This document shows, piece by piece, positions 9,973 to 60,435 of a stretch of DNA of 64,000 nt. Source of the DNA: Aequorivita iocasae (GTDB lineage: Bacteria; Bacteroidota; Bacteroidia; Flavobacteriales; Flavobacteriaceae); contig NZ_CP068439.1 in the NCBI RefSeq assembly GCF_016757735.1, positions 3,002,001 through 3,066,000 of the forward strand, read 5' to 3'. The stretch's first letter is position 1; each line of letters opens with the position of its first letter. The position numbers and the translations under genes are program-made. Under the pieces are notes generated by a model. The model was not told the origin of the DNA. It ran no database searches and worked only from the letters and a program-made list of their open reading frames with translations.

Positions 9973-10083
9973 ATTCACAATTCACAATTCACAATTCACA
10001 ATTCACGATTCACGATTCACGATTCACGATTCACAATTCACGTCTCACGATTCAAGATTCACGTCTCACAACTCACAACTCAC
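9973..10083 (+). repeat. Heptad tract A, abutting the adhesin-like gene's stop
   Basis: Sixteen consecutive 7-base words without a register break: ATTCACA (x4), ATTCACG (x4), ATTCACA, ATTCACG, TCTCACG, ATTCAAG, ATTCACG, TCTCACA, ACTCACA, ACTCACT. The last word runs into the stop codon of the minus-strand gene at 10084. The words vary at positions 1, 2, 6 and 7 while the TCA core is constant. Confidence 0.9.
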
Positions 10084-11634
10084 TTAATCTGCCTTTACCA
10101 ATTCAATATTTAAGTAGGTGCCGTCAGCAATTGTCCTCACATTACCGTCTTGTGGGGTATCCGTAAAAATATAAACCTGCTCATAGGCACTAAAATGAAC
10201 CATTTTGGTTAGGGTAGCCGACACCTTATCCCCATTCCCCATAAAAACGTAGGTCGCAGAGCCTGGAATAAAGTTAGAATTCCATCCTTTTGCAAGGCTG
10301 AACTTTATATTTAAATCGCTCCCCCCTGTTTTTTCTATTGCAACGGCATAGGTTACACGATATGTACCCGCTTTAATAAACTGAACATTATTTGAATTAA
10401 CAGTAATATTCTCAGAAACAGCTGTTATTCCAAAATTAATTGGAGTCCATGGATCCAAATTTTGTGTATTTGAAGCATATATATCTGCATATGCTGTATT
10501 TCCCAATTGAGGATAGGATGTCCAAGTTGCATTTCCACTGGCGTCAGAAGTTAAAATCTTGCCCGCACCTTGGCTTCCATCTGCAATTTTAAGCGTTCCA
10601 TTCTGCAGTTTTAAAGTCCCGTCTACTTTAATATTTCCCTTGACATCCAATTTTTCGGTAGGATTACTGGTTCCTATACCAACCTTAGTGGCATCCCAAG
10701 ATGAAAGACTTAAATTATTTCCTAAAATTATTGTATTGGGATTGTTGGCTATGGAACCATTTCCTATTGCTACTGCATTTTGTGCACTCGCGTTTGAATT
10801 ATTTCCCAAGGCAGAGCTGTTAGCGCCGGTTGAGATACTGCTTGTGCCTATTGCCACTGCATATTGCCCTGTTGCCTTGGAAGAGGTGCCTATTGCAGTA
10901 CTATTTTCACCCGTTGCCTCGCTATTGGTGCCCACTGCCAGGGTATTGTTATTAGTGGAAGCTTTAGCATTTACGCCAATTGCCGTAGCCTGAAAACTTG
11001 ATGCGGTAGCTGAATTACCCAGCGCAAGCGTGCTGTTGCTTGTTATGGCTTTTGCGTTATATCCTAAGGCCGCCGACTGAAAGCCCGAAGCGGTTGCTGA
11101 GGCACCCACTGCAGTAGCTTGATTGCTGTTTGCTGCGTTGGCGTTTGTACCTATTGCAATGGAGTTGTTTTCATTGGCCACTGCCCCATACCCCAGTGCC
11201 ATCCCGCCGTGGGGATCAAATAATGCAAACCGACTGTTATTTACTTTAAAATTAAGCGCGATATAATTTGTAGTGCCTAAAAATTTGGTGCCATCCACAT
11301 TATTTCCATTCAAAGACCAGCCATCGCTACCGCCCCCTGTACCGGATGAACCTGCAGAAATTGCATTCCAAGCACTGCCATTCCAGAAATAAAAACCTGG
11401 ATTAAGATCGGCTGTTGTTGAGGTATTATAGACCAGAAGACTAACGGCTGGGTTTAACACAGTGCTATTGTCGCCAGAGCTCGTTAATGCCACTCGGGGA
11501 AAGAGCACTCCTTTATTACTGGCGGAAACATCAAGCATACTTGATGGGTCTGGAGAAGTGGTATTAATACCAACTTGTGAAAAACTTAAAAAGGAGAAAA
11601 AGAATAAGACGAAAAAGATGTAGGTAGTTTTCAT
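10084..11634 (-). CDS. Secreted YadA-head-repeat protein with C-terminal beta domain
   Basis: 516 residues. Signal peptide MKTTYIFFVLFFFSFLSFS, then a short conserved block (QVGINTTSPDPSSMLDVSAS). Residues 150-310 contain about ten 14-residue YadA-type head repeats (AIGxxAxAxxxxxxAxGxxA), the left-handed parallel beta-roll of trimeric adhesins. After a linker (VGIGTSNPTEKLDVKG) the last 120 residues form a beta domain (AGTYRVTYAV...) that resembles a C1q/TNF-like jelly roll. I see no membrane anchor or T9SS tail. A shorter frameshifted paralogue lies at 61771-62543, with the same leader and -7 box. Confidence 0.85.
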   Translation of the reverse strand: MKTTYIFFVLFFFSFLSFSQVGINTTSPDPSSMLDVSASNKGVLFPRVALTSSGDNSTVLNPAVSLLVYNTSTTADLNPGFYFWNGSAWNAISAGSSGTGGGSDGWSLNGNNVDGTKFLGTTNYIALNFKVNNSRFALFDPHGGMALGYGAVANENNSIAIGTNANAANSNQATAVGASATASGFQSAALGYNAKAITSNSTLALGNSATASSFQATAIGVNAKASTNNNTLAVGTNSEATGENSTAIGTSSKATGQYAVAIGTSSISTGANSSALGNNSNASAQNAVAIGNGSIANNPNTIILGNNLSLSSWDATKVGIGTSNPTEKLDVKGNIKVDGTLKLQNGTLKIADGSQGAGKILTSDASGNATWTSYPQLGNTAYADIYASNTQNLDPWTPINFGITAVSENITVNSNNVQFIKAGTYRVTYAVAIEKTGGSDLNIKFSLAKGWNSNFIPGSATYVFMGNGDKVSATLTKMVHFSAYEQVYIFTDTPQDGNVRTIADGTYLNIELVKAD

Positions 11635-11660
11635 TATAAATTTAATTGATTTGGGTGGTG

Positions 11661-11668
11661 CAAACGTA
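11661..11668 (-). promoter_or_regulatory. Promoter -7 box of the YadA-head gene
   Basis: On the minus strand TACGTTTG matches TAnnTTTG, 27 bases before the ATG. The same box followed by CACCACC occurs upstream of the paralogous pseudogene at 62567, so the promoter was duplicated with the gene or kept under constraint. Positions 11669-12021 otherwise show no feature that I recognise. Confidence 0.6.
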
Positions 11669-12021
11669 CTATCCCTTATAAACTCATCTAAATCTTTTCG
11701 ATATAACCATTTATAAAATCGTTAAAATGTTGATTTGGTTGATTTAGAAGCCTTTATACGTAAGAATATTCCTATATAATTTAGGTAGATGGAACGATTA
11801 TAGCTTAGTATGGTAGCCTCCCATTAACTACCCATCCCTTTGAGAAACTATGGGCAAGCCACCGCTCAGGATAGGCCCGCGCTCAGGGTAAACTTTACTT
11901 ATTCGAAATCGCTGGCGCATTTTAATTAATGAATAAATAATAATGAATAGAATTGCTACTTAAACTTTTAATTTTTTATTCTAATCTGAAATTATATATT
12001 TATTTAATAAAATCCCGAAAC

Positions 12022-13374: not shown

Positions 13375-13569
13375 GTTTTAATGATTCCCTATTTAGTGTA
13401 TTTCAAATTTACTCGAACACCTTTGTTTTCGTATTAATTGAAATTCTGCACTCAGGTCCCTGAGTGGCCGATGAAGGAGGCTGTATCGAAGGTACCGGCC
13501 TCGCGAATGACAGTTTTACAAAATATCAAAAGCCTTCCTCGAACAGCCTGCCCTGCGCAGGCGAAGGGT
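13375..13569. other. Spacer with degenerate interspersed repeats
   Basis: No gene supported. The segment GGTCCCTGAGTGGCCGATG, followed by ATCGAAGGTACC, resembles the CTGAG..TCGAAGG repeat family seen inside purL. CTCGCGAATGACAGTTTT resembles a worn end of the 155-bp unit that follows. Confidence 0.45.
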
Positions 13570-14575
13570 CTTTGCGAAGGAGCGACCCAAGGAGCGACTG
13601 AAGCAATCTGCCCAGGGGTGGTTACAATCATGATAACAAGTAGCCTCATGAGATTAACTCCGTTGAATCTTCGATTTGCCACGCTGCGCTCGCAATGACG
13701 GTTTTGTTCATCATTGGTACCGTCATTGCGAAGGAGCGACCCCAAGGAGCGACTGAAGCAATCTGCCCAGGGGTGGTTACAATCATGATAACAAGTAGCC
13801 TCATGAGATTAACTCCGTTGAATCTTCGATTTGCCACGCTGCGCTCGCAATGACGGTTTTGTTCATCATTGGTACCGTCATTGCGAAGGAGCGACCCCAA
13901 GGAGCGACTGAAGCAATCTGCCCAGGTGTGGTTACAATCATGATAACAAGTAGCCTCATGAGATTAACTCCGTTGAATCTTCGATTTGCCACGCTGCGCT
14001 CGCAATGACGGTTTTGTTCATCATTGGTACCGTCATTGCGAAGGAGCGACCCCAAGGAGCGACTGAAGCAATCTGCCCAGGGGTGGTTACAATCATGATA
14101 ACAAGTAGCCTCATGAGATTAACTCCGTTGAATCTTCGATTTGCCACGCTGCGCTCGCAATGACGGTTTTGTTCATCATTGGTACCGTCATTGCGAAGGA
14201 GCGACCCCAAGGAGCGACTGAAGCAATCTGCCCAGGGGTGGTTACAATCATGATAACAAGTAGCCTCATGAGATTAACTCCGTTGAATCTTCGATTTGCC
14301 ACGCTGCGCTCGCAATGACGGTTTTGTTCATCATTGGTACCGTCATTGCGAAGGAGCGACCCCAAGGAGCGACTGAAGCAATCTGCCCAGGTGTGGTTAC
14401 AATCATGATAACAAGTAGCCTCATGAGATTAACTCCGTTGAATCTTCGATTTGCCACGCTGCGCTCGCAATGACGGTTTTGTTCATCATTGGTACCGTCA
14501 TTGCGAAGGAGCGACCCCAAGGAGCGACTGAAGCAATCTGCCCAGGGGTGGTTACAATCATGATAACAAGTAGCT
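13570..14575. repeat. 155-bp tandem repeat array, about 6.5 units
   Basis: Landmarks recur every 155 bases (CAGG-K-GTGGTTAC at 13613, 13768, 13923, 14078, 14233, 14388, 14543). Copies are nearly identical, and one variable base reads G,G,T,G,G,T,G, which implies a three-unit (465-bp) higher-order repeat. Each unit is bounded by CGTCATTGCGA and TCGCAATGACG, an inverted pair, with CTCATGAG inside. The last unit is cut after ACAAGTAGC, directly against the stop codon of the ClC gene. Reading frames of 84 codons on the minus strand are a by-product of the repeat, not genes. Confidence 0.95.
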
Positions 14576-14993
14576 TCATTTTTTTTCCATTTGCGAAGCT
14601 ATAAAAGGAATTCTTGGCGCTAAGAAATAGCCTGTCAAACTTGCAAATAATATGGGTATGAAATGTCCAAATCCGGTAAGAGTAGCTAGTAAAATGGTTG
14701 TACTCATTGGTGTACGTGTTACACAAGCGTTAATTGCTGCCATACAGCTAACTATGGCTAATGTTAAATTTATAGTCGGAAATAGTTGATGGATAATTAG
14801 CCCCAATGTTGCGCCTACGAAAAACAGAGGTATTATAAATCCACCCCTCCAACCTGATGTAACGGTTATGGAAATTGCTATGATTTTAAAAATCAAAATT
14901 GCACACAGTAAGGTTAATGAGAAATTTTCTGATAGTAGTACGTTTATCTCGTGATGTCCAAAGTATCGGGTTATGGGAAGATAAAATGAAATG

Positions 14994-14997
14994 ATAC
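14994..14997. repeat. Target-site duplication, left copy
   Basis: ATAC directly before the IS left end; the same ATAC follows the right end at 16219-16222. Four bases is consistent with insertion by IS3 elements of the IS407 group. Confidence 0.9.
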
Positions 14998-15062
14998 TGT
15001 AAGCTTCCCTTAAAACCGAACTGTTTAAAAGTAGAATAATTATCTTAAATTTAAACAGTATT

Positions 15063-15329
15063 ATGAGACGAAGTAAATTTTCACCGCAACAGATTGCAAA
15101 GATTTTAAAGGAATTCGACAACGGAAAGAGTGTTGACCAGATCAGCCGTGAGCACGGTGTTGCCCCTGCGACCTTCTATAAGTGGCGCTCCAGGTATGCC
15201 GGGATGAACACCAAGGAGCTCAAGCGCCTCAAGGAGCTGGAAGAAGAGAACGCCAGGCTCAAGCAGATGTATGCCTCCCTTGCCCTTGACCACCAGATGG
15301 CCAAGGAGATCATCGAAAAAAAGCTCTAA
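15063..15329 (+). CDS. IS3 transposase OrfA
   Basis: 88 residues. N-terminal helix-turn-helix ([20 protein letters not shown]...[11 protein letters not shown]) that binds the IS ends, followed by a leucine-zipper-like coiled coil ([18 protein letters not shown]). The frame closes with GAA AAA AAG CTC TAA, so A AAA AAG is in the correct register for programmed -1 frameshifting into orfB, which lies in the -1 frame. Confidence 0.93.
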
Positions 15330-15403
15330 AGCCCTGCAGGAAGCGAACCATTGCCAAAGAACTTATTCATTACGGCATCTGCAGGGCGTGCCGTGTACTC
15401 AAC

Positions 15404-16192: not shown

Positions 16193-16218
16193 ACAGTTCT
16201 AATTAGGGGAAGCTTACA

Positions 16219-25187: not shown

Positions 25188-25336
25188 GGCTATAGGCTTT
25201 AAGCTTTAGGCTATAGGCTTTAGGCTATAGGCTGGTGGGTGAATCGTAAATCGTAAATCTTGAATAAGTGAATGCGTGAATGGTTGATGAAAAATCTTAC
25301 GTCTTACGTCCTAAGTCTTACGTCCTACATCTAATG
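25188..25336 (+). repeat. Heptad tract B with three word families
   Basis: Successive words: GGCTATA, GGCTTTA, AGCTTTA, GGCTATA, GGCTTTA, GGCTATA, GGCTGGT, GGGTGAA, TCGTAAA (x2), TCTTGAA, two 8-base words, TGGTTGA, TGAAAAA, TCTTACG (x2), TCCTAAG, TCTTACG, TCCTACA, TCTAATG. The word family changes twice while the 7-base register holds apart from two single-base slips. No gene spans it. Confidence 0.85.
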
Positions 25337-25464: not shown

Positions 25465-25640
25465 ACCTATGCAATGGTATGCAATTGCGGTACATTCCGG
25501 TCTGGCGTGTGCAATGGTGTGCAATGGCGGTCCATGGTGTTCAGGAGTGTGCAAGGGTGTGCAATGGCGTGCAATCGAGGTACATTTTGGGCAGGGGTGT
25601 GAAAGCGGATGCAATGGTAGTACATTTTAATCCTTTGGTT
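25465..25640 (+). repeat. Degenerate GTGCAATGG / GGTACATT repeats before DUF6266 gene
   Basis: TGCAATGG-like words recur about nine times, punctuated by GGTACATT or AGTACATTTT at 25488, 25580 and 25619. Spacing is irregular, so this is not a heptad tract. The open frame through it (25479-25763) reads as cysteine- and tryptophan-rich repeats and is not believable as protein. Positions 25641-25791 contain CAATTCCAGTCAATTCCATTCAA-type words but no gene. Confidence 0.6.
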
Positions 25641-25791: not shown

Positions 25792-26433
25792 ATGGGAACA
25801 TACAACAAAGGTATCCTAGGCCCCTTTAGGGGAAAAGTTGGCCCCGTGATCGGTTATTCCTGGAGAGGAAAAGACCTGATGCGCGGGTTGCCAAAAGAAT
25901 CGACTGTTGCTGCCACAAAGGCGCAGCTTGAACAACGTGCAAAGTTTGGCACGGTCATTAAATTTTTAACTCCTATTAAAGGCATTTTAAGTGCCTATTT
26001 TGGGAAAGAACAAAAAGCGAAGTCGCCGTTTAACCTGGCAACAGGCTATCATTTAAATGAGGCCCTATTGCCCGGCCCCGACGACACTTGGCTAATTGAT
26101 TACCCAAAAGTGCTGATAAGCCGGGGCGACCTAAGAGGGGTTGATAATCCGCAACTTGCCGTGGAAGGTGGGTTAATAAACCTTACGTGGACGGACAACA
26201 GCGGCCTAGGTTCTGCAGATGCTACCGACCTGTTGATCGCGGTGGTGTATTGTACGGAAATGAACGAGTTTGTGCAGTTTAATCCTGCCGCTACCCGTGC
26301 AGATGCCGTTGTACAACTTGCCATTCCCGCGTATTTGAGCGGATCCTTGGCAGAGGTATGGGTTACCTTTGCAACAGCAGAGGGCAATCTGGCAGCCGTT
26401 AGCAGCTATGCGGGTGCGGTTACCGTGCCTTAA
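25792..26433 (+). CDS. DUF6266 family protein
   Basis: 213 residues. The N-terminus MGTYNKGILGPFRGKVGPVI followed by GYSWRGKDLMRG is the hallmark of the DUF6266 family, frequent in Flavobacteriia and often multicopy. The C-terminal 100 residues form a beta-sandwich-like domain (LINLTWTDNSG...AEVWVTFATAEG). No signal peptide. Function unknown. The gene is isolated between repeat tracts. Confidence 0.85.
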   Translation: MGTYNKGILGPFRGKVGPVIGYSWRGKDLMRGLPKESTVAATKAQLEQRAKFGTVIKFLTPIKGILSAYFGKEQKAKSPFNLATGYHLNEALLPGPDDTWLIDYPKVLISRGDLRGVDNPQLAVEGGLINLTWTDNSGLGSADATDLLIAVVYCTEMNEFVQFNPAATRADAVVQLAIPAYLSGSLAEVWVTFATAEGNLAAVSSYAGAVTVP

Positions 26434-26439
26434 TTTTTG

Positions 26440-26594
26440 CTGTAGGCTTTAGGCCGTAGGCTGTAGGCTTTAATCCTACGGCTTACGGCTTTTGGCTTTT
26501 AGCAATAGTCGCTCTATTGATAAAGGTATAGCCTACGTCTTATGTCATACGTCATAAGTCATAAGTCATACGTTTTCAGCATTCAACCTTCAGC
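26440..26594 (+). repeat. Heptad tract C between two convergent stop codons
   Basis: First block: CTGTAGG, CTTTAGG, CCGTAGG, CTGTAGG, CTTTAAT, CCTACGG, CTTACGG, CTTTTGG, CTTTTAG, CAATAGT. A 22-base gap follows. Second block: CCTACGT, CTTATGT, CATACGT, CATAAGT (x2), CATACGT. Third block: TTCAGCA, TTCAACC, TTCAGCT, which runs into the stop codon of the HTH gene at 26595. It starts six bases after the DUF6266 stop. Confidence 0.85.
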
Positions 26595-26834
26595 TTACGG
26601 TTTTTCATCCATATCATCGGGAAGCTTGCCCCCGCGTAGGTAGAGCATTTTTAAAATTACATCTTCAAGGTAAAAATTGGTACTTCCAATTTTCATATAA
26701 GGAATGGCACCCCGCTTTCGCCATCGATAGAGGCAGGATTTGCTAATTCCAAATAGCTCGGTAATCTGCTCGTCCTTTACCAGACGAACTTCTCGCAGGT
26801 CCTTAGACCTTTCTTTAGTAGGTTCTTGAGGCAT
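26595..26834 (-). CDS. Small helix-turn-helix (excisionase-type) protein
   Basis: 79 residues. The central part (KDEQITELFGISKSCLYRWR followed by KRGAIPYMKIGSTNFYLEDV) is a HTH_17 / MerR-like DNA-binding domain with a wing. Proteins of this type regulate mobile elements or act as recombination directionality factors. It stands alone beside DUF6266 and a transposase remnant, so a regulatory role for a lost element is possible. Confidence 0.82.
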   Translation of the reverse strand: MPQEPTKERSKDLREVRLVKDEQITELFGISKSCLYRWRKRGAIPYMKIGSTNFYLEDVILKMLYLRGGKLPDDMDEKP

Positions 26835-27178: not shown

Positions 27179-27265
27179 AATTGGCTAATTGATAATTTGG
27201 AATTTGGGATTTGGGATTTGGAATTTGGGATGTGGGATTTGGGATTTGGAATTTGGAATTTGACC
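27179..27265 (+). repeat. Heptad tract D, G-rich
   Basis: Twelve or so words in unbroken register, for example TTGATAA, TTTGGAA, TTTGGGA (x2), TTTGGAA, TTTGGGA, TGTGGGA, TTTGGGA, TTTGGAA (x2), TTTGACC. It lies 137 bases before the acyl-CoA ligase start. Positions 27266-27401 form an AT-rich leader. Confidence 0.85.
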
Positions 27266-30920: not shown

Positions 30921-31175
30921 TTCTCTGTTCTCTGTTCTCTGTTCTCTGTTCTCTTGTCTCACATCTCACTACTCACAACTCACAACTCACTCCTCACTAC
31001 TCACTACTCACTACTCATCACTACTCACTACTCACTACTCAATACTCACTACTCAATACTCACTACTCAATACTCACTACTCAATACTCACTACTCAATA
31101 CTCACTACTCACTACTCACAACTCACTACTCACAACTCACTACTCACAACTCACTATTCACTACTCACTACTCAC
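30921..31175 (+). repeat. Heptad tract E, about 36 words
   Basis: Begins TTCTCTG (x4), TTCTCTT, GTCTCAC, ATCTCAC, then TACTCAC / AACTCAC / TCCTCAC variants and a block alternating TACTCAA and TACTCAC five times. One 10-base word (TACTCATCAC) is the only break in register over 255 bases. It fills most of the spacer between the SMR and MarR genes. Open frames through it are artefacts. Confidence 0.92.
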
Positions 31176-31251: not shown

Positions 31252-31692
31252 ATGAAGGAAAAAACAATCGATTATATACTGCGCTCCACCTGGATGAGCG
31301 TAACAAAAATGTACAATGAAGAAGCTGGAAAAAAAGGAAGCACCATGGCCACAGGCTTTGCCCTTATAAGCATTGATCCCGAGGAAGGCACGCCCTCCAC
31401 GGCACTTGGACCAAAAATGGGGATGGAAGCTACTAGCCTCTCAAGAACCTTGAAATCTATGGAACAAAAAGGTTTGATAGAGCGCAAACCCAATCCTGAT
31501 GATGGTCGCGGGGTCTTGATCCACTTAACGCCTTTCGGAAAAGAGATGCGCGATTTTTCAAAAGGGGTGGTTTTAGGCTTTGATGAAGCGGTAAAAAAAA
31601 ATGTCTCTGCCGAAGAACTGGAGATTTTCAAAAAGGTGGCAAACACAATAAACGAATTAATCAATTCAAAAAAAATATACGACTCTCAATAA
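31252..31692 (+). CDS. MarR-family transcriptional regulator
   Basis: 146 residues with a winged helix-turn-helix: GMEATSLSRTLKSMEQKGLI as recognition region and the wing RKPNPDDGRGVLIHLT. First gene of the fatty-acid degradation operon, so probably its autoregulated repressor, perhaps responding to acyl-CoA. That role is inferred from position. Confidence 0.9.
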   Translation: MKEKTIDYILRSTWMSVTKMYNEEAGKKGSTMATGFALISIDPEEGTPSTALGPKMGMEATSLSRTLKSMEQKGLIERKPNPDDGRGVLIHLTPFGKEMRDFSKGVVLGFDEAVKKNVSAEELEIFKKVANTINELINSKKIYDSQ

Positions 31693-31762
31693 AGAGTTAG
31701 GAATTAAGAATTAGGAAAATAGTTATAACCCAATTAACGAATAACTATTAACCACTAACTTT
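31693..31762. repeat. Empty heptad hairpin between marR and fadB-like genes
   Basis: Starts at the base after the MarR stop. Left words: AGAGTTA, GGAATTA, AGAATTA, GGAAAAT. Right words: TAACGAA, TAACTAT, TAACCAC, TAACTTT, whose complements end in GTTA like the left words. AATAGTTAT (31718-31726) pairs perfectly with ATAACTATT (31741-31749). There is no open frame in the loop. Confidence 0.75.
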
Positions 31763-31769: not shown

Positions 31770-34178
31770 ATGTCAAAAAGAAGAATTAACAAAGTAGCGG
31801 TAATCGGTTCCGGAATTATGGGAAGCGGCATAGCCTGCCATTTCGCCAACATAGGCGTGGAAGTGCTGTTGCTGGATATTGTTCCGCGCGAGCTTACCGA
31901 TGAGGAAAAGAAAAAGGGCTTAACCCTAAATGATAAGGCTGTACGAAACAGGATCGTAAACAACGATTTGCAGAAATCGATAAAAAGCAACCCTGCCCCA
32001 CTCTACCACAAGGATTTCGCAAAACGGATTTCCACCGGAAATCTCGAGGACGATATTTCCAAGGTAAACACTGCCGATTGGATCATTGAAGTGGTTGTAG
32101 AGCGCCTGGACATTAAAAAGCAGGTTTTTGAAAATCTTGCAAAACACCGAAAGGAAGGCACACTTATTACCACAAACACTTCCGGAATCCCGATACACTT
32201 AATGAGCGAAGGCCATAGCGAGGATTTTCAGAAACATTTCTGCGGTACGCACTTTTTCAATCCGCCCCGCTATTTAAAACTTTTTGAAATCATTCCCGGA
32301 CCAAAAACCTCGCCTGAAGTTTTAGACTTTTTAAATGAATATGGCGAAAAATTCCTCGGGAAAACTTCCGTGGTCGCAAAAGACACTCCTGCATTTATAG
32401 GAAACAGAATCGGAATCTTCGGCATTCAAAGTCTTTTCCACCAAGTAAAGGAAATGGGCCTTACCGTGGAAGAAGTAGATAAACTGACCGGGCCGGTAAT
32501 CGGCCGACCCAAATCGGCAACCTTCCGCACTGTTGATGTGGTTGGTCTCGATACCTTGGTGCACGTTGCAAACGGAATCTATGAAAATGTGCCCGACGAT
32601 GAGGAGCACGAAACCTTCAGACTGCCAAAATTCATCAACACAATGATGGAAAACAAATGGCTGGGAAGCAAAAGCGGACAGGGTTTTTACAAAAAAGTGA
32701 AAAACGACGACGGAAGTAGCGAAATCCTATCACTCGACCTTGAATCCATGGAATACCGAAAAAGCAAAAAAGCCTCTTTCGGTACCTTGGAAAAAACCAA
32801 ATCGGTTGATAATGTGGCCGACCGTTTCCCAATTCTTATAAAAGGTGAAGACAAGGCAGGCGAATTCTACCGAAAAAATTTCGGGGCTATGTTTGCTTAC
32901 GTTTCCAAAAGAATTCCCGAAATAACCGACGAGCTCTATAAGATTGACGATGCCATGAAAGCCGGTTTCGGCTGGGAAAACGGCCCGTTTGAAATATGGG
33001 ATGCCGTGGGCGTGAAAAAGGGAATTGAACTAATAAAAGATTTAGGGAAAGAGCCCGCCCCTTGGGTAAATGAAATGCTTGAGAGTGGCGTGGATAGCTT
33101 TTATGAAGTACGTGAAGGGAACACATACTATTACAGTATCCCAGACAAAATACATAAAAAAATACCCGGACAGGATGCCTTTATTATTCTGGACAACATC
33201 CGAAAATCCAAGGAAGTTTGGAGCAACAAAGACGTTGTGGTTGAAGATTTGGGCGATGGTATTTTAAATGTAGAATTCCGAAGCAAGATGAACAGTATTG
33301 GGGGCGATGTACTTGCCGGTGTAAACAAAGCTATAGACCTTGCCGAAGCTAGTTTTGACGGTTTGGTAATTGCCAACAACGGCAAAAACTTTTCCGTGGG
33401 CGCCAACATTGGTATGATCTTTATGATGGCAGTAGAACAAGAGTATGAAGAATTAAATGCAGCCGTAAAGTATTTTCAGGATACAAGTATGCGCATCCGC
33501 TATTCCTCTATTCCCGTGGTGGTTGCACCACATGGAATGACCTTGGGTGGAGGTTGTGAGTTTACGCTCCACGCAGACCGCGTGGTTGCAGCAGCCGAAA
33601 GTTACATAGGTTTGGTTGAATTTGGCGTTGGAGTAATCCCCGGCGGTGGCGGTTCCAAGGAAATGGCAATGCGCGCCAGCGACACTTTCAAAAAAGATGA
33701 TGTGGAATTGAACAGACTTCAGGAATATTTCTTGACCATTGGAATGGCAAAAGTTTCCACTTCAGCCTATGAAGCTTACGATACGGGTATTCTTCAAAAA
33801 GGAAAAGATATCGTTATCGTAAACCAAAACAGGCAAATTGCCGCAGCGAAGGAAGTTGCGCGTTTTATGGCAGACCAAGGCTACACAAAACCAATCCCAA
33901 GAACCGATGTGAAAGTACTCGGAAAGCAAGCCTTGGGAATGTTTTTAGTTGGAACGGACCAAATGGTGGCAGGTAATTACATCAGCGAGCACGACAAAAA
34001 AATAGCCAATAAGCTTGCCTATGTAATGGCAGGTGGTGATTTGAGCGAAGCAAGCTACGTAAGCGAACAATATTTACTTGACCTTGAAAGGGAAGCCTTC
34101 TTAAGTTTAACCGGAGAGCGAAAGACTTTGGAAAGACTTCAGCATATGATTCAGAAAGGGAAACCTCTTAGAAATTAG
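31770..34178 (+). CDS. 3-hydroxyacyl-CoA dehydrogenase / enoyl-CoA hydratase, FadN-like
   Basis: 802 residues. Hydrates enoyl-CoA and oxidises 3-hydroxyacyl-CoA in beta-oxidation. The dehydrogenase comes first (NAD-binding VAVIGSGIMGSGIACHFA near residue 9; FFNPPRYLKLFEIIPG) and a crotonase domain follows (GGGCEFTLHADRVVAA, VEFGVGVIPGGGGSKEM at about 590-635). This order matches FadN rather than E. coli FadB. The preceding hairpin and the following inverted element bracket the gene within the operon. Confidence 0.92.
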   Translation: MSKRRINKVAVIGSGIMGSGIACHFANIGVEVLLLDIVPRELTDEEKKKGLTLNDKAVRNRIVNNDLQKSIKSNPAPLYHKDFAKRISTGNLEDDISKVNTADWIIEVVVERLDIKKQVFENLAKHRKEGTLITTNTSGIPIHLMSEGHSEDFQKHFCGTHFFNPPRYLKLFEIIPGPKTSPEVLDFLNEYGEKFLGKTSVVAKDTPAFIGNRIGIFGIQSLFHQVKEMGLTVEEVDKLTGPVIGRPKSATFRTVDVVGLDTLVHVANGIYENVPDDEEHETFRLPKFINTMMENKWLGSKSGQGFYKKVKNDDGSSEILSLDLESMEYRKSKKASFGTLEKTKSVDNVADRFPILIKGEDKAGEFYRKNFGAMFAYVSKRIPEITDELYKIDDAMKAGFGWENGPFEIWDAVGVKKGIELIKDLGKEPAPWVNEMLESGVDSFYEVREGNTYYYSIPDKIHKKIPGQDAFIILDNIRKSKEVWSNKDVVVEDLGDGILNVEFRSKMNSIGGDVLAGVNKAIDLAEASFDGLVIANNGKNFSVGANIGMIFMMAVEQEYEELNAAVKYFQDTSMRIRYSSIPVVVAPHGMTLGGGCEFTLHADRVVAAAESYIGLVEFGVGVIPGGGGSKEMAMRASDTFKKDDVELNRLQEYFLTIGMAKVSTSAYEAYDTGILQKGKDIVIVNQNRQIAAAKEVARFMADQGYTKPIPRTDVKVLGKQALGMFLVGTDQMVAGNYISEHDKKIANKLAYVMAGGDLSEASYVSEQYLLDLEREAFLSLTGERKTLERLQHMIQKGKPLRN

Positions 34179-34604
34179 AATTGAGTAGTTAGTATTGAGT
34201 ATTGAGAAAATGCACAAGTTAGAAGAATTAAAGATTTGGAATAAAGCGATGGAAGTTGCTGAAGAAGTCTATCTACTAACTGCAAATTTTCCAAATGAAG
34301 AAAAGTTTGGATTGATCAGTCAACTTCGTAGAAGTGCTGTTTCAATTCCTTCTAATATTGCAGAAGGGGCAGGAAGAAATACCAATGGTGAATTTAAAAA
34401 CTTCCTCGGCATTGCTAACGGTTCTTCATATGAGCTTTTTACACAATTATTATTATCAATTAAATTAAAACTTGGTTCAGAATCATTAGTAAATCCAATT
34501 TTATCCAAAGTTATTGAACTACAAAAAATGAGCTATTCATTAATAAAATCGTTAGAAAAATGAGTGTCTCAATACTCAATACTAACATCTAAATACTAAA
34601 TAAA
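34171..34604 (+). mobile_element. Heptad-armed element 1 with four-helix-bundle gene
   Basis: GTTAGTATTGAGTATTGAG (34188-34206) is perfectly complementary to 34568-34586, and the match extends imperfectly for another 17 or so bases. Both arms have period 7: left TTAGAAA, TTAGAAT, TGAGTAG, TTAGTAT, TGAGTAT; right (complement) TTTAGTA, TTTAGAT, GTTAGTA, TTGAGTA. The left arm includes the FadB-like stop codon; the right arm starts 5 bases after the enclosed gene. The RNA would fold into a long stem with the gene in the loop, as in 23S rRNA intervening sequences. Confidence 0.75.
34210..34563 (+). CDS. Four-helix-bundle protein, 23S rRNA IVP family, copy 1
   Basis: 117 residues from ATG 34210; a TTG at 34195 lies within the inverted arm and is rejected. 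The pattern LEELKIWNKAMEVAEEVYLL, then LRRSAVSIPSNIAEGAGR, is that of pfam05635-type proteins first seen in rRNA intervening sequences, related in fold to the Avd accessory protein of diversity-generating retroelements. The function is unknown; it might bind its own hairpin or nucleic acid. It sits between two beta-oxidation genes in the same direction. Confidence 0.88.
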   Translation: MHKLEELKIWNKAMEVAEEVYLLTANFPNEEKFGLISQLRRSAVSIPSNIAEGAGRNTNGEFKNFLGIANGSSYELFTQLLLSIKLKLGSESLVNPILSKVIELQKMSYSLIKSLEK

Positions 34605-34605
34605 A

Positions 34606-35793
34606 ATGAAAACAGTATATATAGTAAAAGCATACAGAACCGCAGTGGGCAAAGCACCGCGCGGGGTATTCCGCTTCAAGCGTCCAGACGAACTGGCTGC
34701 GGAAACCATTAAATATATCATGAATGAATTACCGCAACTCGACAAAAAGCGAATTGACGATGTAATTGTGGGTAATGCCATGCCCGAAGCCGAACAGGGA
34801 CTAAATATGGGCCGGTTGATTTCGTTGATGGGTCTTGATATTGTTGACATTCCAGGAATGACGGTAAACCGTTATTGCGCTTCGGGATTGGAAACCATTT
34901 CCATTGCCGCGGCAAAAATCCAAACAGGAATGGCAGATTGCATTATTGCAGGGGGTGCGGAGAGCATGAGTTACATTCCAATGGGTGGCTACAAGCCTGT
35001 TCCAGATTATAAATTGGCAAAGGAGGGCCACGAAGATTATTACTGGAATATGGGATTGACTGCTGAAGCAGTTGCCAAAAAATACAATGTTTCCCGAGAG
35101 GATCAAGACGAGTTTGCCTATACAAGTCAAATGCGCGCCTTAAAAGCTCAGGACGAAAATCGTTTTCAAGATCAAATTGTGCCTATTGAAGTGGAACACA
35201 CTTTCGTAAACGATTCGGGAAAAAAAGTAACCGAAAAATATACGGTAAATAAGGATGAAGGCCCTAGAAAGGGAACCAATATTGAGGCTCTTTCAAAATT
35301 GCGCCCGGTTTTTGCCGAAGGCGGAAGTGTTACCGCAGGTAATTCCTCACAGATGAGTGACGGCGCAGCTTTCGCAGTTGTTATGAGTGAAGAAATGGTA
35401 AAGGAACTAAACCTAGAACCCATTGCCAGATTGGTAAGTTTTGCCGCTGTTGGCGTGGAGCCAAGCATTATGGGAATTGGACCAGTCTATGCAATTCCAA
35501 AAGCCTTAAAACAAGCTGGATTGAAGCAAGACCAAATAGAACTTATAGAATTGAACGAAGCCTTTGCCTCACAGTCTTTGGCCGTAATCCGTGAACTTGG
35601 TTTGGATAGGGAAAGAGTAAACGTAAACGGCGGCGCTATCGCTTTGGGACACCCACTGGGTTGTACAGGCGCAAAACTTTCAGTGCAATTGTTTGATGAA
35701 ATGCGCAAGCGCAACCTACAAGGAAAATACGGAATGGTAACCATGTGCGTGGGGACGGGACAAGGAGCGGCTGGTATTTATGAAGTATTTTAA
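34606..35793 (+). CDS. fadA: Acetyl-CoA C-acyltransferase (3-ketoacyl-CoA thiolase)
   Basis: 395 residues. Thiolytic cleavage of 3-ketoacyl-CoA, last step of beta-oxidation. Nucleophilic Cys91 in [22 protein letters not shown], the His motif [16 protein letters not shown] and the second catalytic Cys381 in MCVGTGQGA. Length is normal. Third enzyme gene in the operon; the downstream junction holds the second heptad-armed element, whose left arm overlaps the stop codon. Confidence 0.94.
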
Positions 35794-36227
35794 ATGTTGA
35801 ATTCAAAATTTTGAAGGAATGGAGCCGAAGAAGGAAAATATCATAATTGACAAAACCTTTAAGTTTTCCCTCGATATAATTTCTTTGTACCAAAAACTTC
35901 AAAATGAAAAGGAATATATTCTTTCAAAACAGCTTTTACGTTCGGCAACCAGTATAGGAGCTAACGTTGAAGAAGCATCGGCAGCCCAGTCGAAAAAGGA
36001 TTTTATAAATAAAATGTCCATCGCGTCTAAGGAGGCACGTGAAACAAAATATTGGCTTAACCTTTTGGACAAGTCTAATTTGACCCAACTTAATATTTCC
36101 CCTTTTTTGATGGAAATAGAACACATAATAAACATTTTGACCAAAATAATAATCACGGCTCAGACCAATTTAAAAAACAATAACATCTAAATTTTCATTC
36201 AAAATTTAGAATTCAAAATACAAAATA
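35786..36227 (+). mobile_element. Heptad-armed element 2 with four-helix-bundle gene
   Basis: The left arm (35786-35817) and the right arm (36196-36227) are complementary at about 27 of 32 positions, centred on TTGAATTC-AAAATTTTGAA against TTGAATTCTAAATTTTGAA. Both have period 7: TTTTAAA, TGTTGAA, TTCAAAA, TTTTGAA on the left; ATTCAAA, ATTTAGA, ATTCAAA, ATACAAA, ATAAAAA on the right. The words differ from those of element 1, but the architecture is the same. Confidence 0.72.
35819..36190 (+). CDS. Four-helix-bundle protein, 23S rRNA IVP family, copy 2
   Basis: 123 residues. Shares the family signature (LLRSATSIGANVEEASAAQS) with copy 1 but is otherwise distant, so this is not a recent duplication. 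Four amphipathic helices are predicted from the hydrophobic spacing. It starts two bases after the left arm and ends five bases before the right arm. Function unknown. Confidence 0.87.
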   Translation: MEPKKENIIIDKTFKFSLDIISLYQKLQNEKEYILSKQLLRSATSIGANVEEASAAQSKKDFINKMSIASKEARETKYWLNLLDKSNLTQLNISPFLMEIEHIINILTKIIITAQTNLKNNNI

Positions 36228-36233
36228 AAAAAA

Positions 36234-53574: not shown

Positions 53575-53580
53575 TAAAAT

Positions 53581-54546: not shown

Positions 54547-54611
54547 TTATTGAGATTTCGTTAACGGTTTAATATTTCCAAAATAGGTATTTTTAAATTC
54601 AATCTTTATTA

Positions 54612-55520: not shown

Positions 55521-55523
55521 ATT

Positions 55524-56741: not shown

Positions 56742-56797
56742 ACCCACAATCGTATCAATCTATTTTGTAAACTTGTAGGGTATTTAAACTACAGTTT

Positions 56798-57334: not shown

Positions 57335-58077
57335 AAAAGATAGTAATTTTTATTATAACTGTAGCTTTCACCTTAGCCTGTAGCCAAGAGGGAGAAAATG
57401 TATCTCAAAATGAAACTATGGGCAACAACGATGGACAAGGTGGCTCTTTGGCGCGTTTTGCAATGCTAGGGGATTATCTGTACACCGTGGATGAATACGG
57501 ATTGAATGTTTACAACATTGCAACTCCATCTGATCCTGTATTCGTTAATAACATTCCTATTAGTTTCAGAATTGAAACCCTTTTCAATTATAAGGAATTT
57601 CTCTACATAGGTTCACAAAATGGAATGTTTATATATAGCATTAGAAATCCAGAATTTCCAGAATATATGGCAGATGTACAGCATTTTACCTCTTGCGATC
57701 CTGTTGTGGCAAATGACACCACAGCTTTTGTTACGCTGTGGTCAGATTTAGGGTGTGGAACTACTGTAAACCAATTGGAGATTTATGATATAACCGATGT
57801 TGTAAACCCCACATTGTTAAGCGTTAGAAGCCTAACATTTCCAAAAGGTATGGGACTTTATGGAGATTATTTATTTGTTTGTGATGATGAAATAAAAGTC
57901 TTTGATATTTCAGACCCAGCAAATTCAGTTTTGGTCCATAATATAAACCGATTAGCTTTTGATGTAATTATACAACACAATTTATTAATTGCCATTGGCG
58001 AGAATGGAATCTATCAATATCAACTCAACCAAAATGATATTACCAATACTTCCCAACTGAGTGCTTTAAACTTTTAA
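57331..58077 (+). CDS. LVIVD-repeat lipoprotein
   Basis: 248 residues. Lipoprotein signal MKKIVIFIITVAFTLAC. Four to five blades of the form GDYLYTVDEYGLNVYNIATP, FLYIGSQNGMFIYSIRNPEF and DYLFVCDDEIKVFDISDPAN, a beta-propeller of the LVIVD type. Surface or periplasmic, function unknown. Translationally coupled to the previous lipoprotein gene. Confidence 0.82.
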   Translation: MKKIVIFIITVAFTLACSQEGENVSQNETMGNNDGQGGSLARFAMLGDYLYTVDEYGLNVYNIATPSDPVFVNNIPISFRIETLFNYKEFLYIGSQNGMFIYSIRNPEFPEYMADVQHFTSCDPVVANDTTAFVTLWSDLGCGTTVNQLEIYDITDVVNPTLLSVRSLTFPKGMGLYGDYLFVCDDEIKVFDISDPANSVLVHNINRLAFDVIIQHNLLIAIGENGIYQYQLNQNDITNTSQLSALNF

Positions 58078-58155
58078 AGTATTCTTAAATTATTGCTGTC
58101 GCTCAAAAACTATTGTACCTTTATTTTAAACTAGTAATAAACCAAAAAATAAATC

Positions 58156-58758
58156 ATGAAAAAAATTAGATTATTTTGCAGTCTTTTAGCGGTTATGGCA
58201 TTTATAAGCTGTAAAAACGAAAAAAAAGATATGGATTCCACCAATGGAATGAATGATTCTATATTAATGGAAAATGAAAACCAAGAAAACTTGGTACAGG
58301 AAGAAGCTAAAACAGTCTCTGTGTCCTTGGAATCTAAAAGTGGAAGTACAGCTGTAGGTGAAGCATATTTTAGTGAAACAAAAGGCATGGTTACCTTTGA
58401 GGCTAAATTTTCTGGACTACAACCTGGAACTCATGCCATTCATATTCACGAAAAAGCAGATTGCAGTGCCGCAGACGCCACTTCTGCAGGCGGTCACTGG
58501 AATCCCACACACACCAAGCACGGAAAATGGGGCGATGCAGCTGGATACCATAAAGGAGATATCGGAAATTTTGAGGTTACCGACGATGGAAGAGGCCGAA
58601 TTTCGATGGAAACCAACGAATGGTGCATAGGCTGTGGCGATGAGAATAAAGATATTCTTGGCAAAGCTTTAATTGTACACGAAGGTAAAGATGATTTCAC
58701 AACCCAACCTACTGGCGATGCCGGAGGTAGAGTAAGTTGTGGAGGAATTATTAAATAA
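58156..58758 (+). CDS. sodC: Cu/Zn superoxide dismutase, lipoprotein
   Basis: 200 residues. The N-terminus MKKIRLFCSLLAVMAFISC has lipobox FISC; an acidic linker follows (25-55). Copper and zinc ligands lie in HAIHIHEKADCS, GHWNPTHTKHG and later DAGGRVSCGG; the disulfide cysteines are present. Converts superoxide in the periplasm. Single gene with its own terminator. Confidence 0.93.
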   Translation: MKKIRLFCSLLAVMAFISCKNEKKDMDSTNGMNDSILMENENQENLVQEEAKTVSVSLESKSGSTAVGEAYFSETKGMVTFEAKFSGLQPGTHAIHIHEKADCSAADATSAGGHWNPTHTKHGKWGDAAGYHKGDIGNFEVTDDGRGRISMETNEWCIGCGDENKDILGKALIVHEGKDDFTTQPTGDAGGRVSCGGIIK

Positions 58759-58784
58759 AATTTTTGATCTTAATTTCATACAAA

Positions 58785-58812
58785 AAATGTCGGCAAAATG
58801 CCGACATTTTTT
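58785..58812. terminator. Bidirectional terminator after sodC
   Basis: AAAATGTCGGCA and TGCCGACATTTT are perfect 12-base arms around AAA, with a T-run; shared by the convergent lpd gene. Confidence 0.92.
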
Positions 58813-58836
58813 TTTATTTCAAGAATATGAGCGTTA

Positions 58837-60240
58837 TTAAATATGCAATGCTCGGTCATCGGTTGCAGCAAGTGCGGCTTCTTTCACTGCTTCGGCATAT
58901 GTGGGGTGCGCATGGCTCATTCTGGCAATATCTTCGGCACTGGCGCGGAATTCCATAGCCGTAACAGCTTCTGCAATTAAATCAGCAACACGAGCTCCTA
59001 CCATGTGTACACCTAGAACCTCATCCGTTTTTTTATCGGAAAGAATCTTTACAAAACCGTCGGTATCGCCACTGGCACGGCTTCTTCCCAAAGCGCGCAT
59101 CGGGAACTGACCGCTTTTATATTCAACATTCGCTTCTTTTAATTGCTCTTCGGTTTTCCCAACGGAAGCAACTTCCGGCCAAGTGTAAACCACCCCCGGG
59201 ATTAAATTATAATCAATATGTGGCTTTTGTCCGGCAATAATTTCGGCAACTAAAACACCTTCTTCCGAAGCCTTGTGCGCAAGCATTGCCCCGCGAACCA
59301 CATCACCAATGGCATAAATATTTTTAATATTTGTTTGTAAATGGTCGTTAACGTCAATCATTCCGCGTTCTGTGATTTTCACACCTGCGTTTTCAGCTTT
59401 CAACCCATCGGTATATGGTTTTCTTCCAACGGAAACCAAGCAATAATCGCCTTTAAAATTTACTTCTTTATCATTTTTATCGGTAGCAGTAACAGTTACT
59501 TCTTTTCCTTTTTTGGAAACTGCGGAAACTTTATGTGAAACAAAGAACTTCACGCCCTGCTTTTTCATTACCTTCATCAATTCCTTGCTTTGTGTGGAAT
59601 CCATTGTGGGAATAATTCGGTCCATATATTCCACTACGGAGACTTCGGAGCCCAATCGGTGATAAACTTGTCCCAATTCCAAACCAATTACGCCACCTCC
59701 AATAACCACAAGGTGTTTCGGGATTTCTTTTAAACTCAAGGCTTCGGTAGAAGTGATAATCCGGTCTTTGTCCAATTTTATAAAAGGAAGCGTTGCAGGC
59801 TTGCTGCCGGTAGCAATAATGGTATTTTTGGCTTCAATGGTCTCCTTTTTCTTACCATTTGTTATTTCAATATTGGTAGCATCCCTAAAAGCACCCATCC
59901 CGGTAAAAACGTCAATTTTGTTTTTATCCATTAAAAACGCTATCCCTTTGGTGGTTTGGTCTACAACGGAAGCTTTGCGTTCAATCATTTTTTTGAAGTT
60001 CAGCTTTATTTCTCCTGGAATTTCAATTCCGTGTTCCTCAAAATGTTTCAAGGCATCTTCGTAATGATGTGAGGAGTCAAGTAATGCTTTGCTGGGAATA
60101 CAACCCACATTCAGGCAGGTTCCCCCCAAAACATCATATTTTTCAATGATTGCGGTTTTCATTCCCAATTGTGCGCAGCGGATTGCTGCCACATAGCCCC
60201 CGGGGCCAGACCCAATTACTGCTACATCATATTTGCTCAT
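58837..60240 (-). CDS. lpd: Dihydrolipoyl dehydrogenase
   Basis: 467 residues. The E3 flavoenzyme of 2-oxo acid dehydrogenase complexes and the glycine cleavage system. FAD site VAVIGSGPGGYVAAI at the N-terminus, redox-active disulfide GGTCLNVGCIPSK (residues 40-52), NAD site VVIGGGVIGLELG near 177, and the C-terminal active-site His-Glu in HAHPTYAE. Length normal. Confidence 0.95.
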   Translation of the reverse strand: MSKYDVAVIGSGPGGYVAAIRCAQLGMKTAIIEKYDVLGGTCLNVGCIPSKALLDSSHHYEDALKHFEEHGIEIPGEIKLNFKKMIERKASVVDQTTKGIAFLMDKNKIDVFTGMGAFRDATNIEITNGKKKETIEAKNTIIATGSKPATLPFIKLDKDRIITSTEALSLKEIPKHLVVIGGGVIGLELGQVYHRLGSEVSVVEYMDRIIPTMDSTQSKELMKVMKKQGVKFFVSHKVSAVSKKGKEVTVTATDKNDKEVNFKGDYCLVSVGRKPYTDGLKAENAGVKITERGMIDVNDHLQTNIKNIYAIGDVVRGAMLAHKASEEGVLVAEIIAGQKPHIDYNLIPGVVYTWPEVASVGKTEEQLKEANVEYKSGQFPMRALGRSRASGDTDGFVKILSDKKTDEVLGVHMVGARVADLIAEAVTAMEFRASAEDIARMSHAHPTYAEAVKEAALAATDDRALHI

Positions 60241-60266
60241 AAAAGTTGAATTTTATATTGAAGTGC

Positions 60267-60274
60267 CAAAGGTA
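60267..60274 (-). promoter_or_regulatory. Promoter -7 box of lpd
   Basis: Minus strand TACCTTTG fits TAnnTTTG, 26 bases before the ATG. Confidence 0.6.
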
Positions 60275-60281
60275 CGATACT

Positions 60282-60435
60282 GTTTAAGAGTTTAAAAGTT
60301 TAAGTTATGTGAATTTGTAAAATTGTGAGTTGAATTTATACCCCCCCTATTCCCATATTCACAGATTTACAAGTTCACTTACACGCTTACTCCCAACTTG
60401 CATACTCACTTATCCACTTATTCACTTATTAACCA
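60282..60435. repeat. Tract G: degenerate heptad hairpin
   Basis: Left arm words GTTTAAG, AGTTTAA, AAGTTTA, AGTTATG, TGAATTT, GTAAAAT, TGTGAGT, TGAATTT. After a loop with seven C's, right words ATTCACA, GATTTAC, AAGTTCA, CTTACAC, GCTTACT and then CACTTAT-type words of 8 bases. GTGAATTTGTAAAATTGTGA pairs with the complement of the segment at about 60356-60377 with few mismatches. There is no gene in the loop. Confidence 0.65.

Follow-up and report, generated by a model that had tools for sequence, protein, structure and literature searches.

Why should several intergenic spacers in a 64 kb stretch of an Aequorivita genome (the window, meaning the whole stretch analysed) be divided into consecutive seven-base words, with a register that outlasts the words themselves? 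The answer that we consider probable, from sequence comparison, is that the tracts stem from S23/IVP foldback elements, kin to the intervening sequences (IVS) of 23S rRNA and situated in intergenic spacers: some tracts would be arms of such elements, and others relatives that lack the gene. The rhythm itself is real and is partly ordinary short-repeat stuttering.

Periodicity was determined in 36 spacers of the window (7,547 bases), computed without the spacers of a 155-bp array. Identity at lag 7 was 0.333, whereas 100 dinucleotide shuffles gave 0.282 (z 10.3); this is the autocorrelation peak that the original prediction had expected. The z values were 5.4 at lag 8 and 3.6 at lag 6. Lags 14 and 21 gave 5.7 and 5.6, while the remaining lags among 2–30 stayed within 3 SD of the shuffles. 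In coding DNA of the window, lag-7 identity was 0.262 and an excess like that of the spacers was not seen.

Tracts were counted by ungapped detection in the window and 20 evenly spaced 20-kb stretches, together 464 kb of the host genome. Intergenic tracts of period 5, 6, 7, 8, 9, 10, 11 and 12 numbered 1, 0, 23, 7, 0, 0, 5 and 0, so that 30 of 36 have period 7 or 8; shuffled controls gave 0.6 at period 8 and 0 at the other periods. The listed tracts of period 7 or 8 have internal lag identities of 0.61–0.94. The window holds 10 listed tracts plus the one at 30921 in 64 kb, versus 20 in the 400 kb of the even genome sample; the 30921 tract is absent from the intergenic list because a 106-codon ORF runs through it. 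At the gathering threshold, no part of the window matched an Rfam family.

Table 1. Periodic tracts and IVP elements of the window (positions counted from its first base).
Feature	Position	Strand	Context or basis
Period-8 tract, TTGGATTT	3942–3972	.	3' of PurL-like ORF; tract census
Single-arm period-7 tract, ATTCACR	9973–10083	.	Adjoins end of minus-strand ORF at 10084
Period-7 tract, GGCTTTA then AATCGTA words	25188–25265	.	Sequence, tract census
Period-7 tract, CTTACGT	25295–25331	.	Sequence, tract census
Period-7 tract, GGCTTTA then partly complementary CCTACGG stretch	26439–26503	.	Internal hairpin score 21
Period-7 tract, CATACGT	26534–26603	.	Sequence, tract census
Single-arm period-7 tract, TTTGGRA	27186–27262	.	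Tract census, word comparison
255-bp tract, TTCTCTG followed by some 29 words of CTCACTA type	30921–31175	.	Sequence, TRF
Short decayed GAATTAG array	31688–31717	.	Between MarR-like and fadJ-like genes; TRF score 32
IVP element 1, 5' arm, GTATTGA/GTAGTTA words	34176–34207	+	Starts at fadJ-like stop codon
IVP1, S23/23S_rRNA_IVP four-helix-bundle gene, in loop	34210–34563	+	PF05635, E 4.3e-37
IVP element 1, 3' arm, complement of 5'-arm words, period 7	34568–34612	+	Tract census
IVP element 2, 5' arm, TTTTGAA words	35794–35818	+	Sequence
IVP2, divergent S23/23S_rRNA_IVP gene	35819–36190	+	PF05635, E 1.4e-25
IVP element 2, 3' arm, period 7	36197–36232	+	Tract census
Period-8 spacer with complementary parts, GTTTAAGA; GTGAATTT words and complement	60282–60433	.	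Tract census

The positions of the tracts between 9973 and 31175 were confirmed (Table 1), and each tract has its own word family, as had been described, with a 7-nt pitch far above chance. Most of the seven spacers originally listed as period 7 stand, except that the array at 31693 is short, weakly scored and missed by ungapped detection, and that the 60282 spacer has period 8, in two tracts (60282–60304 and 60344–60433) with a complementary partner score of 26 versus 19. Period 8 was also found, as foreseen, in the tract after purL, and is the minor form (7 versus 23 tracts). Several tracts have counterparts among IVP elements. The words at 3942 match element L010 of the host genome, and those at 27186 are the words of its element L018 (score 65); at the latter site 11 of 12 other Aequorivita have no period-7/8 tract, and G314 has one with different words. 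The words at 30921 are the complement of words like those in the IVP1 arms, 3 kb off, and score 45 against the arm of host element L009.

Both four-helix-bundle elements of the window are S23/IVP genes in foldbacks with arms of 7-bp words. The arms pair with Smith–Waterman (SW) scores of 46 for element 1 and 43 for element 2, measured in the identical loci L011 and L019, and the complementary partner scores of the 3' arms are 44 versus a median of 19 and 40 versus 20. Both 3' arms have period 7 in the census, in agreement with the pitch earlier ascribed to them. IVP2 was found at 96 bits by iterated HMM search. The neighbouring genes encode 3-hydroxyacyl-CoA dehydrogenase, thiolase and acyl-CoA dehydrogenase. 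The IVP family is presumably related to Avd of diversity-generating retroelements, systems that combine a reverse transcriptase with template and variable repeats.

S23/IVP genes occur in 235 of 296 sampled Bacteroidota genomes (221 above the family cut-off), and their flanks were compared with those of size-matched control ORFs. The best flank lag was 7 in 81/111 IVP elements versus 26/227 controls, 8 in 19/111 versus 35/227, and either in 100/111 versus 61/227; arms both periodic and inverted were found in 63/111 versus 7/227. Many of the 111 elements are interrelated and therefore not independent, and the 227 controls may include some IVP genes, which were kept in. Within the arms, lag identity was 0.554 at 7, 0.368 at 8, 0.526 at 14 and 0.27–0.31 at other lags, and the median arm is 34 nt, about five words; these values and the G·U counts given below leave out the 26 of 111 elements with an arm score below 26. 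In these comparisons, IVP genes are mostly enclosed by two arms of 7-bp, sometimes 8-bp, words, the two arms being roughly complementary to each other.

An arm pairs better with its cognate partner than with the arms of other elements. The median was 28 versus 17 in a set of 55 elements (64 matches minus duplicate proteins, L021/L025, partial matches and short flanks), with the cognate arm ranking first in 15 and in the top three in 30. A second set of 57 (58 loci minus partial matches and short flanks) gave 25 versus 16, first in 17 and top three in 36, and a cyanobacterial set, freed of the duplicate plasmid locus L349, gave 38 versus 15, first in 8 of 12. Heptad arms also flank some S23 genes on cyanobacterial plasmids, the cognate arm not being top-ranked in 8 of 20, and are present in a true 23S rRNA IVS of Azospirillum. 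The link of the 7-nt pitch to S23/IVP genes across phyla goes beyond the earlier reading.

Tracts without a gene were compared with the arms. Solo tracts score 30.7 against IVP arms of the host genome, 21.5 against arms of other genera and 19.6 when shuffled (p 2.4e-4 for the host-genome match, n=27); host-genome arms are no better than those of other Aequorivita (p 0.13), and the fit of solo tracts to the word grammar described below is marginal (combined z 2.0). Solo tracts resemble the resident repertoire of IVP-arm words. Gene-less hairpins are present in the same spacers as IVP elements, and one spacer retains both arms although its IVP gene has lost its middle, an internal-deletion relic; a search for IVP remnants in 9 gene-less spacers found one (G307 S2). 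The notion that every tract is a hairpin was rejected, since only 5 of 30 sampled tracts have, within 1.2 kb, a partner of significant complementarity, four of the five being IVP arms; the single uniform tract family first proposed fails on the same count. Four further sampled tracts fold on themselves, with an internal score of at least 21. Across 16 genomes, 80 kb each, solo-tract density correlated weakly with the number of IVP genes among the matches listed (rho 0.43, p 0.09). Four genomes with 10 to at least 15 IVP matches (G103, G226, G065, G191) had zero period-7/8 intergenic tracts in 80 kb, as had three IVP-free genomes in 80 kb apiece.

Arm words follow one loose grammar (2.505 bits versus a null of 1.75, SD 0.05), measured on 64 of 85 arms, the others having been dropped for a length under 24 or a lag-7 identity below 0.5. 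It includes an A–G step per word. Words such as GAAGAGA contain no stop codon. The three most variable positions within words are not adjacent beyond chance (p 0.79). Spacers of one operon share words (p 5e-5 among 15 loci, some with a non-heptad hairpin, retained), and a further same-operon test, covering operons with a periodic stretch in their spacers, gave p values of 0.020, 0.0025 and 0.0067; in that test one of five spacer pairings was not significant (p 0.094).

The strongest rival holds that replication slippage alone, with a built-in bias towards units of 7 nt, made the tracts and that the IVP genes are bystanders; we give it somewhat less than an even chance. Word identity falls from 0.74 at distance 7 to 0.66 at 14 and 0.54 at 42, and the GAATTAG array, counterpart of the 31693 tract, has 0 to 10 exact copies across other Aequorivita, which points to slippage plus mutation. 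The 60282 region is an exact 8-mer array in G306, while in G305 no tract was found at its counterpart, though the neighbouring gene is 98% identical. Arrays differ between species by whole words and adjoining words are most alike, so that both whole-unit length change and greater likeness of adjacent units, the marks of slippage-type VNTRs, are present. The comparison of relatives for gain, loss and resizing of tracts, which the original prediction had called for, shows such changes, and its dismissal of slippage was too strong; decay from an exact unit, which it had named as telling against it, largely holds for the 31693 and 60282 tracts. Heptamers are also over-represented in many bacteria according to the available text of PMC4679880 and PMC4692102, the former attributing a polymerase-contact idea for the 7-nt preference to Mrazek and colleagues, and the weak correlation of solo-tract density with IVP count fits slippage as well. 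However, slippage does not produce a complementary pair of arms around a gene, and it leaves unexplained both the contrast of 63/111 IVP elements with 7/227 control ORFs and the likeness between solo-tract words and the arms of resident IVP genes.

The reading that we prefer, heptad tracts as arms and gene-less relatives of S23/IVP foldbacks, would make use of slippage. Aided by folding of the arms, it would insert or drop words as complete units. Words would also be transferred by template switching, either from one paired arm to the other or from hairpin to hairpin in one operon; the register would therefore persist while the words drift. With less confidence, the arrays might be bound by the IVP protein, possibly with one subunit on each word, and the pitch of 7 would be kept for that reason.

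Taken on its own, the proposal that the arrays are putative IVP-protein binding sites with selected spacing, one subunit per word, seems doubtful. TRAP, which binds spaced triplets, offers an analogy. The common grammar with its one A–G step per word, the median arm of about five words and the five chains in each of the solved relatives 2gsc and 2rld would suit it, but five chains per entry do not prove a pentamer in solution. The protein of 2gsc is XCC0516, which we take to be an X. campestris locus tag. Words are common to most protein pairs above 70% identity and seldom to those below 60%, and hairpins of an operon have words in common with its IVP; common descent, however, also gives word sharing among similar proteins, and L018, at 25% protein identity, still has words in common with the second IVP of L009. 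A word-reading role of the S23/IVP protein is putative.

That the hairpins are retained as RNA structures in operons (for processing, stability or termination), with unrelated hairpins interchanging, we regard as unlikely. The ends of the fadJ-fadA spacer are complementary beyond shuffles in 18 of 21 Aequorivita (p ≤ 0.05; 0.055–0.085 in the other three), with at least seven kinds of hairpin by eye and three kinds of IVP; G305 has three CTCAATA words. For 16 gene-less spacers, predicted folding is better than for their shuffles, with z between −0.7 and −4.4, but many of these values are weak, and the wider family includes 15 loci, out of 80, at which neither spacer reaches 40 bases. Selection on the sense RNA through G·U wobble was rejected on a contrary result, G·U-compatible mismatches being fewer (110 versus 158, p 0.004).

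Stop-codon arrays shutting all three frames, which a period of 7 or 8 but not of 6 or 9 achieves, are a very improbable explanation. Of 78 5' arms, 46 shut all three frames, versus 26.8 (SD 3.2) in dinucleotide shuffles, with 327 stops versus 292 (SD 7.8), but any stop-bearing tandem word with a period not divisible by 3 suffices, periods 5, 10 and 11 would serve too and yet are rarer, and GAAGAGA-like words have no stop. An enzyme dedicated to templated copying in strides of 7 nt, a stronger form of the stepwise copying originally suggested, is scarcely credible, since the register is indeed retained despite word variation but neighbouring words vary in a graded way and relatives carry exact arrays.

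Elements of this kind were originally held to be undescribed, which does not hold for the arrays. Heptamer arrays, some heterogeneous or inverted, are reported from cyanobacteria, Xanthomonas, Beggiatoaceae and a few Bacteroidetes in the available text of PMC4679880, PMC4692102 and PMC4476775. A literature search found no report joining heptamer repeats to S23/IVP genes outside rRNA. The accessible part of PMC4692102 describes the Xanthomonas GGGAATC repeats as intergenic and partly heterogeneous, with 70 close inverted pairs in one species and 75 in another, and treats them as G-quadruplexes. TAACTGA repeats, intergenic and present in part in Aequorivita sublithincola beside other heptamers, are one exact word, unlike the window tracts; the consulted part of PMC4679880 reads them as possible translational regulator sites or traces of rearrangement, and reports 7-nt indels between close Cyanothece strains. 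The P6b stem of the Nostoc tRNA-Leu intron is likewise a hairpin of 7-nt words in which one heptamer class is repeatedly supplanted by another, and the GTATTGAG words of the window agree with its Class II motif, NNTGAGT; in contrast to the window IVP elements it belongs to a group I intron, with no gene in its loop as far as the available text of PMC4476775 describes. Calothrix STRR has 7-nt units of several kinds (cited in the available part of PMC4692102).

Like STRR heptamers, the window tracts are tandem, degenerate and intergenic with 7-nt units; unlike them, they reside in Aequorivita, not a cyanobacterium, and their words are AT-rich. Published STRR words are G/C-rich. Arm words of cyanobacterial plasmid S23 genes are also G-richer (GGGAACA and others) than the AT-rich Aequorivita words. 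Matching heptad arms around an S23 gene in several phyla suggest that separately described repeat families may be one. A tentative extension, which we would not bet on, is that many intergenic heptamer repeats of bacteria (STRR, Nostoc stems, Xanthomonas GGGAATC, Bacteroidetes heptamers) and the 23S IVS form a single foldback family with arms of 7-nt words, whose S23/IVP protein would act in trans and read words specific to each protein lineage, these words spreading to nearby hairpins within an operon. To our knowledge, S23/IVP genes have no known function. For cyanobacterial and Xanthomonas heptamer repeats, the available parts of the literature give no agreed origin. Should the two turn out to be parts of a single element, either problem would help with the other: the protein would have an obvious candidate ligand in the word arrays, and the gene would flag where gene-bearing copies sit. 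Heptad spacers can, moreover, be wholly unlike between close relatives.

The nearest known system is the 23S rRNA IVS, which RNase III excises. The window elements differ from it in lying between operon genes, outside 23S rRNA and with no Rfam match. In Coxiella, the 23S IVS has direct heptamers 5' of its ORF in strain-variable copy number, according to the available text of PMC4990558. The window elements resemble the 23S IVS in having a PF05635 ORF within complementary arms, at the E-values and SW scores given above, and in the heptad arms found also in the Azospirillum IVS.

Identity at lag 7 in the spacers of the window was 0.333, against 0.282 after shuffling (z 10.3), and 0.262 in coding DNA. 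Lags 8, 14, 21 and 6 were also raised, more weakly than lag 7, so the 7-bp spacing of the intergenic tracts, with its excess over lags 6 and 8, is confirmed. The tract positions of the original prediction hold, apart from a short, weak GAATTAG array and a region of period 8. The source genome is a single contig of 3.35 Mb, the window being its bases 3,002,001-3,066,000; both of the nearest named relatives of the window's thiolase belong to Aequorivita. An ungapped lag score over 464 kb of this genome detected intergenic tracts of period 7 (23), 8 (7), 11 (5) and 5 (1), and none of period 6, 9, 10 or 12; the shuffled control gave 0.6 tracts at period 8 and 0 at other periods. Period 11 was thus the third commonest in this sample (loci L039, L041, L042, L043 and L044).

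Coordinates of repeats, tracts and associated genes in the window
Feature	Position	Strand	Remark
155-bp array	13568-14579		6.5 nearly identical copies; unit starts GTCATTGCGAAGGAGCGAC
CLC chloride-channel-like ORF	14576-15121		adjoins the 155-bp array
Degenerate TGCAATGGTG-type repeats	25470-25618		about 150 bp; TRF periods 10, 40, 50; between tracts, preceding the DUF6266 gene
DUF6266 gene	25792-26433		flanked on both sides by GGCTTTA tracts
30921 tract	30921-31175		about 29 CTCACTA-type words
GAATTAG array	31688-31717		short, weak; before fadJ; one exact copy plus decayed copies
IVP1	34210-34563	+	S23/IVP gene
IVP2	35819-36190	+	S23/IVP gene
60282 region	60282		period 8

Both small genes of the fadJ-fadA-acyl-CoA dehydrogenase region (gene names such as fadJ and fadA being shorthand for Pfam matches) match PF05635, the S23/IVP four-helix-bundle family. 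The source genome holds 17 such matches, two of which are neighbouring pieces and one of which has two internal stops. Most are surrounded by complementary arms built of words, which usually differ from element to element. Among 80 named loci with a thiolase relative, an IVP element occupied one or both adjoining spacers in 39, and both spacers were shorter than 40 bases in 15. Locus L122 comes from a MAG labelled Bifidobacterium breve; its thiolase is 78% identical in protein to that of the source flavobacterium and an IVP element is adjacent, so the label is probably wrong.

The flanks of 111 distinct IVP proteins, many related to each other, were pooled from own-genome, thiolase-locus, phylum and genus sets. 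The best lag was 7 in 81 and 8 in 19 of them, against 26 and 35 of 227 control ORFs of similar size, and periodicity together with inverted arms was found in 63 elements versus 7 controls. In 85 elements, arm identity was 0.554 at lag 7, 0.368 at lag 8, 0.526 at lag 14 and 0.27-0.31 at the remaining lags within 3-13, and G exceeded C in the 5' arm of 80. The words of 64 period-7 arms can be aligned on a single loose consensus, G-W-W-D-T-D-A, which carries 2.505 bits of information against 1.75 (SD 0.05) in 200 column permutations.

The fadJ-fadA spacer measured at least 75 bases in all 21 Aequorivita genomes, its ends were complementary beyond shuffles in 18, and at least seven kinds of insert were counted by eye, three IVP and four gene-less. 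One genome, G307, retained both arms around an IVP gene whose middle is lost. An IVP element in one spacer and a gene-less hairpin in the other spacer of the same fadA operon had a mean word similarity of 28.0, versus 19.3 between operons (15 loci, permutation p 5e-5). Across the 21 Aequorivita operons, words agreed within the operon among three spacers (p 0.020, n = 12; 0.0025, n = 6; 0.0067, n = 9); for two pairings that included the spacer between MarR and fadJ, p was 0.094 and 0.026. Between G000 and G305 the fadJ-fadA spacer is wholly different; identity is 0.90-0.95 where fadJ ends and 0.74-0.98 in fadA, against 0.98-1.00 in acdh and 0.99-1.00 over the greater part of the 3' half of fadJ, and it is mixed across the 5' half of that gene. 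This single case fits import by homologous recombination.

Other arrangements were observed in these operons. A GC-rich, non-heptad hairpin of 110-114 bp (GCCCC...GGGGGC) fills the fadJ-fadA spacer, the site of IVP elements in other species, in G314 (L330), G307 (L340), G309 (L342) and G316 (L346). The fadA-acdh spacer of G322 (L345) carries a tandemly duplicated gene-less heptad hairpin of 217 bp, and a run of N near a heptamer tract upstream of MarR in G314 (L247) may reflect either a gap in the assembly or masking.

For the solo tracts, 27 were taken from the own-genome sample, with four IVP arms removed and the 30921 tract added. They scored 30.7 against own-genome IVP arms and 21.5 against equal numbers of other-genera arms (p 2.4e-4), while shuffled tracts scored 19.6 against own-genome arms; own-genome arms were not significantly above those of other Aequorivita (26.6, p 0.13). 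The 30921 words are the complement of IVP1-like words. A significant complementary partner within 1.2 kb was detected for just 5 of 30 tracts, so the solo tracts are mostly single arms. Their density was poorly predicted by IVP copy number.

Word identity within tracts drops with distance, from 0.74 at lag 7 to 0.54 at lag 42. The proposed comparison among relatives showed differences in the presence and length of tracts: the GAATTAG array ranges from none to 10 exact copies across species (G307 10, G322 7, G312 4, G305 3), and the 30921 site lacks a tract over threshold in 14 of the 21 genomes listed (G300, G308 and G322 among them with a weaker hairpin) and has three exact CTCAATA words in G305. 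Tract change between species is apparently whole-unit slippage plus point mutation.

The sequences themselves demonstrate the arms and their words, the grammar, a single loss of the gene, the sharing of words and the change by unit steps. Complementary arms and shared words would result from template switching among hairpins that are paired or lie next to each other, and the IVP protein is a putative binder of the word array. Five chains are present in each of the solved relatives, 2gsc and 2rld, and the median arm length of 34 nt fits five words; a match of chains to words is a suggestion only. Base pairing in sense RNA was tested through G.U wobble, and the result was contrary to it.

A tblastn search with IVP1 of 72,556 plasmid records gave 29 matches, 27 cyanobacterial by name. 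Of the 21 records retrieved among these, 20 entered the arm analysis: 18 from cyanobacteria and one each from Gemmatirosa and Azospirillum. Mean lag-7 identity of the arms was 0.48 and 0.47, versus about 0.28-0.35 at other lags, with GGGAACA, GGGTGTA, GGGAGTA, GGGAAAA and GGTGACA words clearly visible. Cognate arms took first place among the 20 for 12 of the genes and did not for the other 8. The Azospirillum match sits within a 23S rRNA gene, between arms of GACAGAG/GACGGAG-type heptads. The Coxiella intervening sequence is described as carrying tandem GACAGAT heptamers, in strain-variable number, upstream of its S23p ORF (PMC4990558). Given the plasmid, Azospirillum and Coxiella cases, the 7-nt pitch is not peculiar to the source genome and often accompanies the IVP family. 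As to gene context, among four cyanobacterial-plasmid S23 genes (L353, L355, L358, L350), two have cas6 on one side and cas4 on the other, one is flanked by cas10 and a Cmr3-family gene, and one, on the opposite strand, separates the beta and alpha genes of ribonucleotide reductase.

The window tracts are probably S23/IVP foldback arms together with gene-less relatives shaped by slippage, and what seems new and testable is that the 7-nt pitch goes with S23/IVP genes across phyla. A literature search, with most subscription journals outside it, turned up heptamer repeats from several lineages as well as papers on intervening sequences; none of the papers listed connected arms of this kind with S23/IVP genes other than those in rRNA. 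The claim that no element of this kind had been described is not borne out by the published repeats. Heptamers are reported from Aequorivita sublithincola in a paper that also cites a proposal that 7 nt mirrors polymerase contact (PMC4679880); two Xanthomonas have 70 and 75 inverted heptamer pairs (PMC4692102). A Nostoc intron has the motifs NNTGAGT and TDNGATT (PMC4476775), the former of which fits the IVP1 words of the window.
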